A stretch of 64,000 nt of DNA from Roseococcus sp. SYP-B2431 (lineage in GTDB: Bacteria > Pseudomonadota > Alphaproteobacteria > Acetobacterales > Acetobacteraceae): assembly GCF_004336745.1 (NCBI RefSeq), contig NZ_SJXD01000027.1:124001-188000 (forward strand), read 5' to 3'. The notes beneath the pieces are model-generated. The model saw only the letters and a program-made list of their open reading frames with translations, was not told the DNA's origin and did not search any database. Position 1 is the first letter of the stretch. Every line of letters begins with the position of its first letter. The translations under genes were made by a program, and so were the position numbers. This document shows, one piece after another, positions 35,251 to 39,919 of the stretch.

Positions 35251-36465
35251 ATGGCGTTCCAGGACAATCCGGGCTTCGCCCGCCGCACGCTCCTCGCCGG
35301 CGGCGGCGCTGCGGTCCTCGCCGCGCCGGCCGTCCATGCCCAAGGTTCGGCAGCTTCGGCCCCCATCAAGATCGGTCTCGTCGCCGTGCTGACCGGCCCG
35401 GCGGCCTCGCTGGGCACGCATCTACGCGACGGCTGGATGCTCGGCATGCGGCACCTTGACACCAAGCTCGGCGGCCGCCGGGTCGAGACCATCGTGATCG
35501 ACGACGAGCTGCGCCCGGACGTCGCCGTCACCAAGGTCCGCGCCGCGCTGGAGCGCGACAAGGTGGACTTCGTCGTGGGCGTGGTCTTCTCCAACATCCT
35601 GGGCGCGATCATCCGCCCGGTGACGGATTCCGGTACCTTCCTGATCTCCACCAATGCCGGCCCCTCGACGCTCGCCGGCCGCGGCTGCAGCCCCTACTTC
35701 TTCACGACGAGCTACAACAACGACCAGGTCCATTCGGTGATGGGCCAGGTGGCGCAGGATTCGAACTACCGCCGGGTCTTCGTGCTGACGCCCAACTATC
35801 AGGCCGGCCGCGACGCGGTGGCGGGCTTCAAGTCGAAGTTCCAAGGCACCGTCGTGGACGAGGTCTATGTGCCGCTGACGCAGATGGACTTCTCCGCCGA
35901 GCTCGCGAAGATCGCCTCGCTGCGGCCGGATGCGGTCTTCACCTTCATGCCGGGCGGGCTCGGCGTGAACCTGGTGAAACAGTATCGGCAGGCCGGGCTG
36001 GCGACGATCCCCTTCCTCTCCACCTTCACGGTGGACGAGGCGACGCTGCCCGCGCAGGGCGAGGCCGCGCTGGGCTTCTACGCCGCGGCGAGCTGGGCGC
36101 CGAACATGGACAACCCCGCGAATCAGGCCTTCGTGCGGGACTTCGAGGGCGTCTACAACTACGTCCCCGCGAGCTATGCGGCGCAGAGCTACGACGCGGC
36201 GCGGCTGCTGGACTCCGCCGTGAAGAAGGTGGGCGGCAACTTCACCGACAAGAATGCGCTGCGCAACGCCATCGCGGCGGCCGATTTCCAGAGCGTCCGC
36301 GGGCCCTTCCGCTTCGGCATCAACCAGTATCCGGTGCAGGATTTCTGGCAGCTCCAGGTCGCGCGCCGGCCGGACGGCCGGTTCCAGACGGAGACGGTGC
36401 GCAAGGTGCTGTCGGCCAATATCGACCCCTGGGCGCCTGAATGCCGCATGCCAGTCCGTATCTGA
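35251..36465 (+). CDS. ABC transporter substrate-binding protein, branched-chain amino acid (LivK) type
   Basis: 404 residues. The N-terminus has twin Arg (FARRTLLAGGGAAVLAAPAVHAQG), a Tat-like signal ending at an AxA site, so it works in the periplasm. The type I periplasmic-binding fold follows: IKIGLVAVLTGPAASLG, VDFVVGVVFSNILGAI and a late AAQSYDAARLLDSAV. The start at 35251 has GGGAGAG 5 bases upstream; an ATG at 35233 is possible. Aromatic or amide ligands are as likely as leucine for this family. A threefold 15-base repeat overlaps its stop codon (36456-36500). Confidence 0.92.
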   Translation: MAFQDNPGFARRTLLAGGGAAVLAAPAVHAQGSAASAPIKIGLVAVLTGPAASLGTHLRDGWMLGMRHLDTKLGGRRVETIVIDDELRPDVAVTKVRAALERDKVDFVVGVVFSNILGAIIRPVTDSGTFLISTNAGPSTLAGRGCSPYFFTTSYNNDQVHSVMGQVAQDSNYRRVFVLTPNYQAGRDAVAGFKSKFQGTVVDEVYVPLTQMDFSAELAKIASLRPDAVFTFMPGGLGVNLVKQYRQAGLATIPFLSTFTVDEATLPAQGEAALGFYAAASWAPNMDNPANQAFVRDFEGVYNYVPASYAAQSYDAARLLDSAVKKVGGNFTDKNALRNAIAAADFQSVRGPFRFGINQYPVQDFWQLQVARRPDGRFQTETVRKVLSANIDPWAPECRMPVRI

Positions 36466-36500
36466 TCTGGCCGTATATGATCTGGCCGCATCTGAACGGG
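36456..36500 (+). repeat. Three imperfect 15-base tandem repeats over a stop codon
   Basis: Units CCGTATCTGATCTGG (36456), CCGTATATGATCTGG (36471) and CCGCATCTGAACGGG (36486) stand head to tail. The stop codon of the binding protein lies in the first unit. The period is a multiple of three. The repeats separate the binding-protein gene from the first permease gene and could come from replication slippage. Confidence 0.6.
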
Positions 36501-38360: not shown

Positions 38361-39108
38361 GATGCTTCTGGAGCTGCGGCATCTGCGCAAGGCCTTCGGC
38401 GGGCTGGTCGGCACCGACGACGTCTCGCTCGACCTGCGCCAGGGCGAGATCCACGCGCTGATCGGCCCGAACGGCGCCGGCAAGACCACGCTCATCCACC
38501 AGATCAGCGGCACGCTTGCCCCGGATTCCGGGCAGGTCGTCTTCGCGGGCGAGGACGTGACGCGGCTCTCTTTGGCGCGGCGGGCGCGGCGCGGGCTGGC
38601 GCGCAGCTTCCAGATCACGAGCATCGTGCCGGGCTTCTCCGCGCTGGAGAACGTGGCGCTCGCCGTGCAGGCGCGCAGCGGCTCCTCCTTCCGCTTCTTC
38701 CGCCCGGCGGGCAACGAGGCCACGCTGAACGGCCAGGCGATGGAGGCGCTGGCCGAGGTCGGGCTGGAGCGGCGCGCCGCCGTGCCGGCCTCCGTGCTTT
38801 CGCATGGCGAGAAGCGGCAGCTGGAGCTCGCCATCGCGCTCGCCATGCGTCCGCGCCTGCTGCTGCTGGACGAGCCGCTGGCCGGCACCGGCGCGGAGGA
38901 GGCCGAGCGGCTGATGCGCATCCTCGGCGGGCTCCGCGCGCGCTACGGCATCCTGCTCATCGAGCACGACATGCCGGCCGTCTTCGCCCTGGCCGACCGG
39001 ATTTCGGTGCTGGCCCAGGGCCGCGTGATCGCCAGCGGCACCAGGGAGGAGATCCGCGCGAATCCCATCGTCCGCGACGCCTATCTCGGCGAAGACGAGG
39101 CGGCTTGA
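38353..39108 (+). CDS. ABC transporter ATP-binding protein (LivG-like)
   Basis: 251 residues. Walker A is GPNGAGKTTL, the signature is LSHGEKRQLELAIAL (the LivG variant of LSGG) and Walker B is LLLLDEPLAG, followed by the switch His in LLIEHDMPAVF. It powers the LivHM channel with LivF. I start at the GTG at 38353, which overlaps the LivM stop by 8 bases; an ATG at 38362 is an alternative. The stop TGA (39106-39108) shares its last base with the ATG of a repeated micro-ORF. Confidence 0.92.
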   Translation: MAEMLLELRHLRKAFGGLVGTDDVSLDLRQGEIHALIGPNGAGKTTLIHQISGTLAPDSGQVVFAGEDVTRLSLARRARRGLARSFQITSIVPGFSALENVALAVQARSGSSFRFFRPAGNEATLNGQAMEALAEVGLERRAAVPASVLSHGEKRQLELAIALAMRPRLLLLDEPLAGTGAEEAERLMRILGGLRARYGILLIEHDMPAVFALADRISVLAQGRVIASGTREEIRANPIVRDAYLGEDEAA

Positions 39109-39217
39109 TGCGCGCCGCCGATTCACGCCTCCGGGCCTTCGCCCTCCGGCGATCGGAGGTTTGCCGCGCCGCCGATTCACGCCTCCGGGCCTTCGCCCTC
39201 CGGCGATCGGAGGCGTG

Positions 39218-39218
<1 letters not shown>
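39108..39218 (+). CDS. Candidate 36-residue micro-ORF built from an 18-residue repeat
   Basis: Reads ATG at 39108 to TGA at 39216-39218: two copies of RAADSRLRAFALRRSE, the first preceded by Met, the second by Val-Cys, and ended by Ala. Ten of 36 residues are Arg. At DNA level a 48-base unit (39112-39159 and 39166-39213) is repeated exactly at a 54-base period, in frame. Its ATG overlaps the LivG stop (TGATG), and its stop overlaps the LivF ATG (TGATG), so it could be translationally coupled on both sides. The second copy also supplies the CGGAGG ribosome-binding site of LivF. It may be only a duplicated spacer. Confidence 0.35.
39112..39213 (+). repeat. 48-base direct repeat, two copies at 54-base period
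   Basis: Copies at 39112-39159 and 39166-39213 look identical by eye and are separated by TTTGCC. The second copy with its flank forms an inverted repeat, CACGCCTCCG..CGGAGGCGTG, with the LivF ribosome-binding site in the right arm. In the first copy the right arm is broken because CGTG is replaced by TTTG. Confidence 0.9.

Positions 39219-39919
<701 letters not shown>

Follow-up and report, generated by a model that had tools for sequence, protein, structure and literature searches.

Overlapping gene pairs are tightly coupled in translation and, in both E. coli and H. volcanii, a distance of ~20 nt between the two genes almost abolishes this coupling (PMC10666635; cited, like the other papers below, from excerpts). 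Insertions in coupled junctions should therefore be harmful. In E. coli, REPs situated within ~15 nt of a stop codon lower translation and reportedly cause ribosomes to stall (Liang 2015, cited in PMC12306157). Occurrences of REPs in hypothetical proteins of <120 aa have been treated as plausibly spurious, and no relay ORFs are described in the excerpt of that account (PMC3733652). Here we describe a junction between the livG/urtD-like and livF/urtE-like ATPase genes of a Liv/Urt-type ABC transporter in Roseococcus sp. SYP-B2431, located within a 64,000-nt stretch of DNA (the window), at which a palindromic repeat encodes a micro-ORF overlapping both of its neighbours.

Methods

The exact-pattern survey covered 60 genomes, including the strain's own. 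Junctions were drawn from 290 clusters identified with a fuzzy pattern (≤2 and ≤1 mismatches), a collection that includes chance matches in unrelated genomes and represents part of the listed element places, clusters with <150 nt of flank having been dropped. Gene calls came from a simple finder based on codon usage, made for this analysis. Tight sense junctions were those with co-directional genes on either side of a sense-oriented element, where no more than 40 nt separated the upstream stop from the left end of the element (stops within the cluster were also accepted) and a downstream in-frame start followed 2–16 nt past the right end; this rule replaced an earlier, hand-picked class (SENSE_TIGHT). 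A strict relay was defined as one or more ORFs in which each start lay at −4 to +2 relative to the preceding stop, the final stop overlapping the next start. Once these criteria were fixed, a later set of 60 regions was fetched, yielding 49 new clusters. Junction look-ups (L358–L393) were excluded from both the later-set relay test and the 481-copy counts of element ends and orientation.

Results

The features of the junction are as follows (positions in the window).

38362..39108, forward strand: upstream ATPase gene, livG/urtD-like (Liv/Urt-type ABC transporter), stop codon TGA at 39106-39108
39108..39218, forward strand: candidate relay micro-ORF, 36 codons plus stop, sharing TGATG with both neighbours
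39111..39159, forward strand: palindromic repeat unit, copy 1 (49 nt, exact), core CCGATTCACG...CGATCGGA at 39118-39157
39165..39213, forward strand: palindromic repeat unit, copy 2, core at 39172-39211
39209..39213, forward strand: Shine-Dalgarno-like GGAGG that closes copy 2 on the right, with pairing predicted in isolated RNA
39218..39919, forward strand: downstream ATPase gene, livF/urtE-like, with NCBIfam matches

The upstream ATPase matched the NCBIfam models UrtD (1.8e-62) and LivG (7e-54) and the downstream ATPase matched UrtE (3.4e-62) and LivF (1e-53), all below the respective equivalog cut-offs. Direct reading of the sequence bore out the claim of an earlier note on this DNA that a micro-ORF lies between the two genes with TGATG at either end. 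The upstream TGA (39106-39108) overlaps the micro-ORF ATG (39108-39110), and the micro-ORF TGA (39216-39218) overlaps the downstream ATG (39218-39220). Both ends are thus stop/start overlaps of the −4/−1 nt type, the distances at which non-element co-directional pairs also overlap directly (134 at −4 and 55 at −1). An alternative start, TTG at 39105, likewise overlaps the upstream stop (TTGA, of the NTGA type) and would give a peptide of 37 aa, MMRAADSRLRAFALRRSEVCRAADSRLRAFALRRSEA, as opposed to the 36 codons counted from ATG 39108.

From the upstream stop codon to the ATG of the downstream gene, the spacer measures 109 nt and is rich in hairpins. Tandem Repeats Finder reported positions 39111-39213 with a period of 54, 1.9 copies, 100% match and a score of 206, the highest among the 16 rows for the window. 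The exact repeat and its 54-nt period had been described correctly in the earlier note, the repeated stretch being 49 nt and not 48 bases. A 34-nt piece of the unit (≤3 mismatches) occurred at two sites in the window, both in the spacer, with 0.00 expected from 100 shuffles. The second copy does carry, as proposed, the Shine-Dalgarno sequence (SD) of the downstream ATPase gene, which is predicted to be almost fully paired in isolated RNA. Folding of a single unit was unremarkable (z = −0.95), and the two-unit region folded better than shuffles (z = −2.70). A search of Rfam with positions 38900-39400 returned no match at threshold (BM-sr0117, 17.3 bits against a gathering score of 112, E = 0.51). 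Elsewhere in the window, positions 36456-36495 hold 2.7 tandem copies of a 15-nt unit, CCGTATCTGATCTGG, directly before the operon's first permease gene.

Both spacer units are copies of a palindrome dispersed in the genome, with the structure CCGATTCACG-(variable stem)-CGATCGGA, which the earlier note does not mention. When the spacer was used as query against the strain's own genome assembly (31 contigs, 4.71 Mb), 45 matches were returned at E ≤ 10, and the pattern CCGATTCACG...CGATCGGA with 8–36 nt between its ends occurred in 19 copies, against 0 for the reversed-pattern control. The exact pattern was present in 20/60 surveyed genomes. This included 18/21 genomes of the genus (the strain itself and 17/20 others) and 2/15 from other genera of the family (one copy in G025, nine in G035), with 0/24 from other families. 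A scan of named genomes spanning at least 116 stretches gave, among the matches listed, Roseococcus, Rubritepida, Roseomonas and relatives, and Hyphomicrobium; scattered single matches elsewhere may be due to chance. Several exact-pattern copies, with one tandem pair, were observed in Hyphomicrobium (L243, L258, L260, L264 and L301), a distant alphaproteobacterial genus, pointing to either horizontal spread or a related family.

The element comprises an outer stem of 5 bp (CCGAT/ATCGG), a TCA bulge and a variable inner stem, and its conserved ends are stop-free in every sense frame. The three bases 3′ of CGATCGG were mostly ACG, AGG or ACC, the four bases 5′ of CCGATT were mostly GCGG, CCGG or GCCG, and 222 of 481 copies ended in ..GGACG, equivalent to CGTC on the opposite strand. 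All 134 pairs of neighbouring copies (<100 nt apart) were arranged head-to-tail. In every exact-pattern copy, the CCGATTCACG core holds GATTC at the bulge, which is a CcrM-type GANTC site; a similar exposure of GANTC is reported for CIR repeats of Caulobacter (PMC2229807). In convergent-gene contexts (e.g. L146, L164, L184), a short T-run often precedes the element, whose other end is often separated by 3 nt from the stop codon of the opposing gene (L184 being one example). At L085 (G005 C226, 1501-1539), the element apparently forms an in-frame fusion close to a protein's N-terminus, with no separate ORF. From its glycine motif, we take this protein to be FAD-dependent oxidoreductase-like.

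The inner arms covary outside tight junctions, with 4.83 of 7 positions forming Watson-Crick pairs compared to 2.83 for swapped partners (n = 178; maximum of 500 shuffles, 3.08). Alongside the predicted pairing of the downstream SD and the reduced translation associated with near-stop REPs in E. coli, this covariation is consistent with an RNA-level element, whose hairpins would act mainly as an mRNA stabiliser, RNase barrier or attenuator setting the ATPase ratio and whose ORF would be incidental. However, the inner stem was less perfect in tight junctions than elsewhere, though still above swapped partners (3.72 vs 3.12, n = 29; maximum of 500 shuffles, 3.52), and a role at the RNA level does not predict the frame-adjusted lengths described below. 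We consider it quite unlikely as the main explanation.

Comparison across the genus distinguished junctions before and after insertion. A livF orthologue was found in 20/21 genomes and, in 15 of these 20, its start directly overlaps the upstream stop as TGATG with no insert. We therefore rejected a conserved ancestral spacer, and the earlier suggestion that the spacer was originally 18 codons long is not supported. The filled junctions (5/20) hold either the window's palindrome, in two copies in the strain itself (G000), two in G006 (the first eroded) and one in G002, or an unrelated longer palindrome, GGCCTCCGGCGGCTGGGGCC...GGCCCCAGCCGCCGGAGGCC, in G005 (L096) and G014 (L092). The unrelated palindrome forms relay ORFs too, of 42 and 52 codons, respectively. 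All five filled junctions contain a stop-free ORF that starts on the upstream stop and stops on the livF start. Out-of-frame spacers in relatives, which the earlier note had named as evidence against a coding spacer, were absent from this junction.

The element was also found upstream of pqqD in G000 and G003, among 20 genomes with pqqD, and upstream of rutB in G010, among 16 genomes with rutB; the rutA-rutB junction is uninterrupted in G003, a relative of G010, and in several other genomes the sequence 5′ of rutB was unlike rutA. In G012 (L360), pqqC and pqqD are separated by a 52-nt spacer that lacks the palindrome motif and holds a relay ORF of 19 codons, which overlaps each gene. Orthologous junctions varied in copy number, with 1 or 2 at livG-livF, 1 vs 5 in G005 and G006, and 1 vs 3 in G001 and G000. 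Relays persisted despite such differences: L169 has five copies (94 codons) and its orthologue L412 one (22 codons), and L038 has three and its orthologue L404 one.

Tight sense junctions accounted for 29 of the 290 clusters, the window's included. A strict relay was present in 24/29, or 21/26 downstream-gene families; lowering the minimum relay length from 30 to 12 nt midway through the analysis left the count at 24/29, with members differing by L038 and L236. The earlier proposal of a coding coupling spacer was supported at this junction, and most of the other tight sense junctions behaved likewise. When nucleotides were deleted within the element, the strict rule was passed in 3.1% (1 nt), 6.5% (2 nt) and 82% (3 nt) of cases. 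An initial form of the test run under different settings likewise yielded 24/29, against 6 and 2. Under the relaxed rule, 27/29 junctions passed, with nulls of 16.6% (1 nt) and 6.5% (2 nt). In the later set, judged by the same criteria, 9/13 junctions were strict relays and one more passed the relaxed rule (deletion nulls 0% and 7.7%); this set is not independent, since it came mostly from the same genomes and includes orthologues of earlier junctions. Merging both sets by downstream-gene homology gave strict relays in 26/33 families. In the main set, the strain's own genome contributed four tight sense junctions (L038, L041, L042, L052), each of them a strict relay. Loci L001-L037, omitted from the main cluster counts as mostly duplicates, added four clusters on checking, two of which (L005 and L013, own genome) were tight sense and both strict relays. 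Two livG-livF relays, L097 (G006) and L104 (G002), fell outside the 29 by filter. Relative to a naive one-in-three frame chance, P was 6e-8 for 24/29, 9e-7 for 21/26 and 0.009 for the later set, values that overstate the evidence because element copies are related.

Failures of the strict test numbered 5/29 and 4/13 in the two sets, and the relaxed rule was also failed by 2/29 and 3/13. Orthologues did not always agree: L201 passes the strict test but its counterpart L429 fails it, and L447, orthologous to L169, passes the relaxed rule only. Antisense elements in tight junctions formed relays at 2/10 loci, 0/5 in the later set and 1/1 among the added loci, which does not support antisense insertions as relays by rule; a relay is therefore not necessary at every junction. 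As a control, non-element co-directional pairs with gaps of 40–300 nt contained a relay in 16/169 cases (deletion null 1.6–3.2%); among these 16 are both livF junctions with the unrelated palindrome, as well as one or more plausible real small genes.

Adjustment to the reading frame was also apparent in the lengths of the elements. Within one palindrome subfamily, copy length was 1 mod 3 in 18/22 tight junctions compared to 4/23 elsewhere (Fisher, P = 2e-5), where 39 and 42 nt predominated; L097, one of the 4/23, is itself a relay, namely that at livF in G006, which the tight filter had missed, and the test left out five copies with overlaps on both sides that were not tight (3/5 being 1 mod 3). 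A GGAGG end was present in 18/29 tight junctions against 13/261 other clusters (Fisher, P = 2e-13). In these 18 junctions, the stop-to-element distance was only 6, 9 or 12 nt and the element-to-start distance only 4, 7 or 10 nt. Arrays with periods of 54, 57 or 60 formed a single read-through ORF (e.g. L052, L063, L175), and those with periods of 59 or 62 carried an extra NTGA between copies, giving two relays in series at L142 and L183 and four at L038.

The 24 strict relays comprised 19 in phase 1, three in phase 0 and two in phase 2, and all three phases were again represented in the later set (read from peptides). This bears on the earlier proposal that the repeat encodes an arginine-rich micropeptide with a function of its own. 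Peptides resembling ADSRLRA-ALRRSEA do occur at many junctions, but such recurrence follows from that of the DNA repeat. Moreover, the other phases give GRFTL... or APIHA... peptides, those from different phases being unrelated to each other, and the sequence is absent in 15/20 livF orthologues. We thus abandoned the micropeptide as highly improbable. Because all three phases are used, it is continuity and not the peptide that seems to be kept.

Flanking duplications indicated how the overlaps may have arisen. Duplicated flanks of ≥9 nt were present in 8/29 tight junctions compared to 6.5% of mismatched flanks, and in 4.1% of 266 clusters in other contexts compared to 0.45%. At L191 (21 nt), L285 (16 nt) and L148 (13 nt), the duplication holds the stop/start overlap, and the rutA-rutB junction has a 21-nt flank duplication. 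This suggests that insertion may duplicate the stop/start overlap itself. Were target duplication alone to make both overlaps, only the frame would need selection; we rejected it as a full explanation, as duplications of ≥9 nt occur in a minority of junctions.

These duplications, the stop-free conserved ends and the single phase common to 19/24 strict relays are also what would be expected of neutral insertion, whereby only gene ends tolerate the palindrome, the open frame comes from stop-free GC-rich sequence, and the common frame reflects descent of a fixed-length subfamily combined with NTGA target duplication. Part of the frame agreement may indeed be shared descent of one subfamily, as these 19 share similar flanks as well as phase; the remaining 10 junctions include five strict and eight relaxed relays. 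However, lengths and flank distances step by three in tight junctions and lengths do not do so elsewhere, the arrays with periods of 59 or 62 hold a compensating extra overlap, relays arise in all three phases, and an unrelated palindrome likewise forms a relay at livG-livF in two genomes. On balance, a purely neutral origin appears unlikely.

Discussion

The best reading of these data, and in our view a probable one, is that the micro-ORF is a relay micro-cistron preserving stop/start translational coupling across a mobile insert. It would have arisen when two tandem copies of a stop-free hairpin repeat inserted in the ancestral TGATG overlap of the ATPase genes, target duplication possibly supplying the second overlap. 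We infer that a ribosome finishing the upstream gene would restart at the overlapping micro-ORF start, read through the micro-ORF whilst melting the hairpins, stop at the second overlap and restart on the downstream ATPase gene. The relay would thereby keep overlap coupling over an insert that should abolish it as a non-coding spacer, with purifying selection on coupling presumably keeping the frame. Given that spacers of ~20 nt almost abolish coupling and near-stop REPs down-regulate translation, a hairpin-rich spacer of 109 nt should uncouple livF; a translated relay would avoid both this uncoupling and the pairing of the SD. Judged from genome comparisons, the frame and both overlaps are apparently kept so that ribosomes can pass from gene to gene.

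A more specific version is that one subfamily has become specialised to invade operon stop/start overlaps, each unit being a self-contained relay cistron (hairpin, GGAGG and duplicated NTGA) that can be stacked and whose copy number could tune the downstream gene. Stacking of one to five copies, either as one long ORF or as up to four in series, would leave coupling intact, and operons would tolerate the inserted unit because translational coupling is unbroken. We regard this specialisation as possible, albeit doubtful.

If correct, the relay reading would show how compact operons absorb mobile DNA and provide natural evidence for selection on overlap coupling in living genomes. A class of small arginine-rich ORFs would also find an explanation as relays, as opposed to peptides. 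The element junctions, with one to five copies and orthologous empty sites, represent a natural spacer series for tests of coupling.

How the element relates to REPs can be assessed from transposase occurrence and element structure. PF01797 (RAYT/Y1 transposase) was detected in 1/21 genomes of the genus (G016: C10, C14, C19) and in 5/14 control genomes. G016, the sole genus genome with a Y1 (REP-type) transposase, has no exact-pattern element, and PF01797 was found in 0/18 element-bearing genus genomes; we thus rejected a RAYT/REP pair for the genus. The GTAG tag of RAYT-associated REPs was likewise absent from the element ends. The CGTC-tagged REPs of alphaproteobacteria are closer, also being short dispersed palindromes beside gene ends for which the excerpt reports no dedicated transposase (PMC3733652). 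No transposase of the Y1 class was found in the element-bearing genus genomes, and 222/481 element copies have CGTC on the opposite strand. In contrast, CGTC REPs are described there as having 8–9 bp stems starting with AT and 4–5 nt loops, and as occurring mostly as head-to-head dimers (PMC3733652), whereas our element has a 5 bp outer stem with a TCA bulge and its pairs were head-to-tail throughout (134/134); it shares neither the stem/loop form nor the dimer arrangement.

Rickettsial palindromic elements, ERIC and other MITEs are likewise small mobile palindromes with open frames in or beside genes (PMC2229807). According to the excerpt, the ORF of ORF-bearing MITEs is fused in frame to one protein, whereas here it forms a separate micro-cistron overlapping both neighbours, the one fusion-like case (L085) being the exception that resembles them. 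Among open-licence PMC literature, in a limited search mostly of titles and the starts of abstracts, we recognised no palindromic-repeat relay micro-ORFs. Known termination-reinitiation at ATGA/TGATG uses the same overlaps as those found at both ends of the micro-ORF, yet, as excerpted, it couples two ordinary genes directly (PMC6728339, PMC10666635), whilst here a repeat-derived relay would stand between them. Similarly, mgtQ, between mgtC and mgtB, is an intergenic small ORF whose translation promotes the next gene via RNA structure; the excerpt presents it as a single regulatory ORF with no dispersed repeat and does not claim a double overlap (PMC8092293). ORF-bearing MITEs, overlap coupling and a single intergenic small ORF are already known, and the limited literature search yielded no repeat family that systematically forms relay cistrons.
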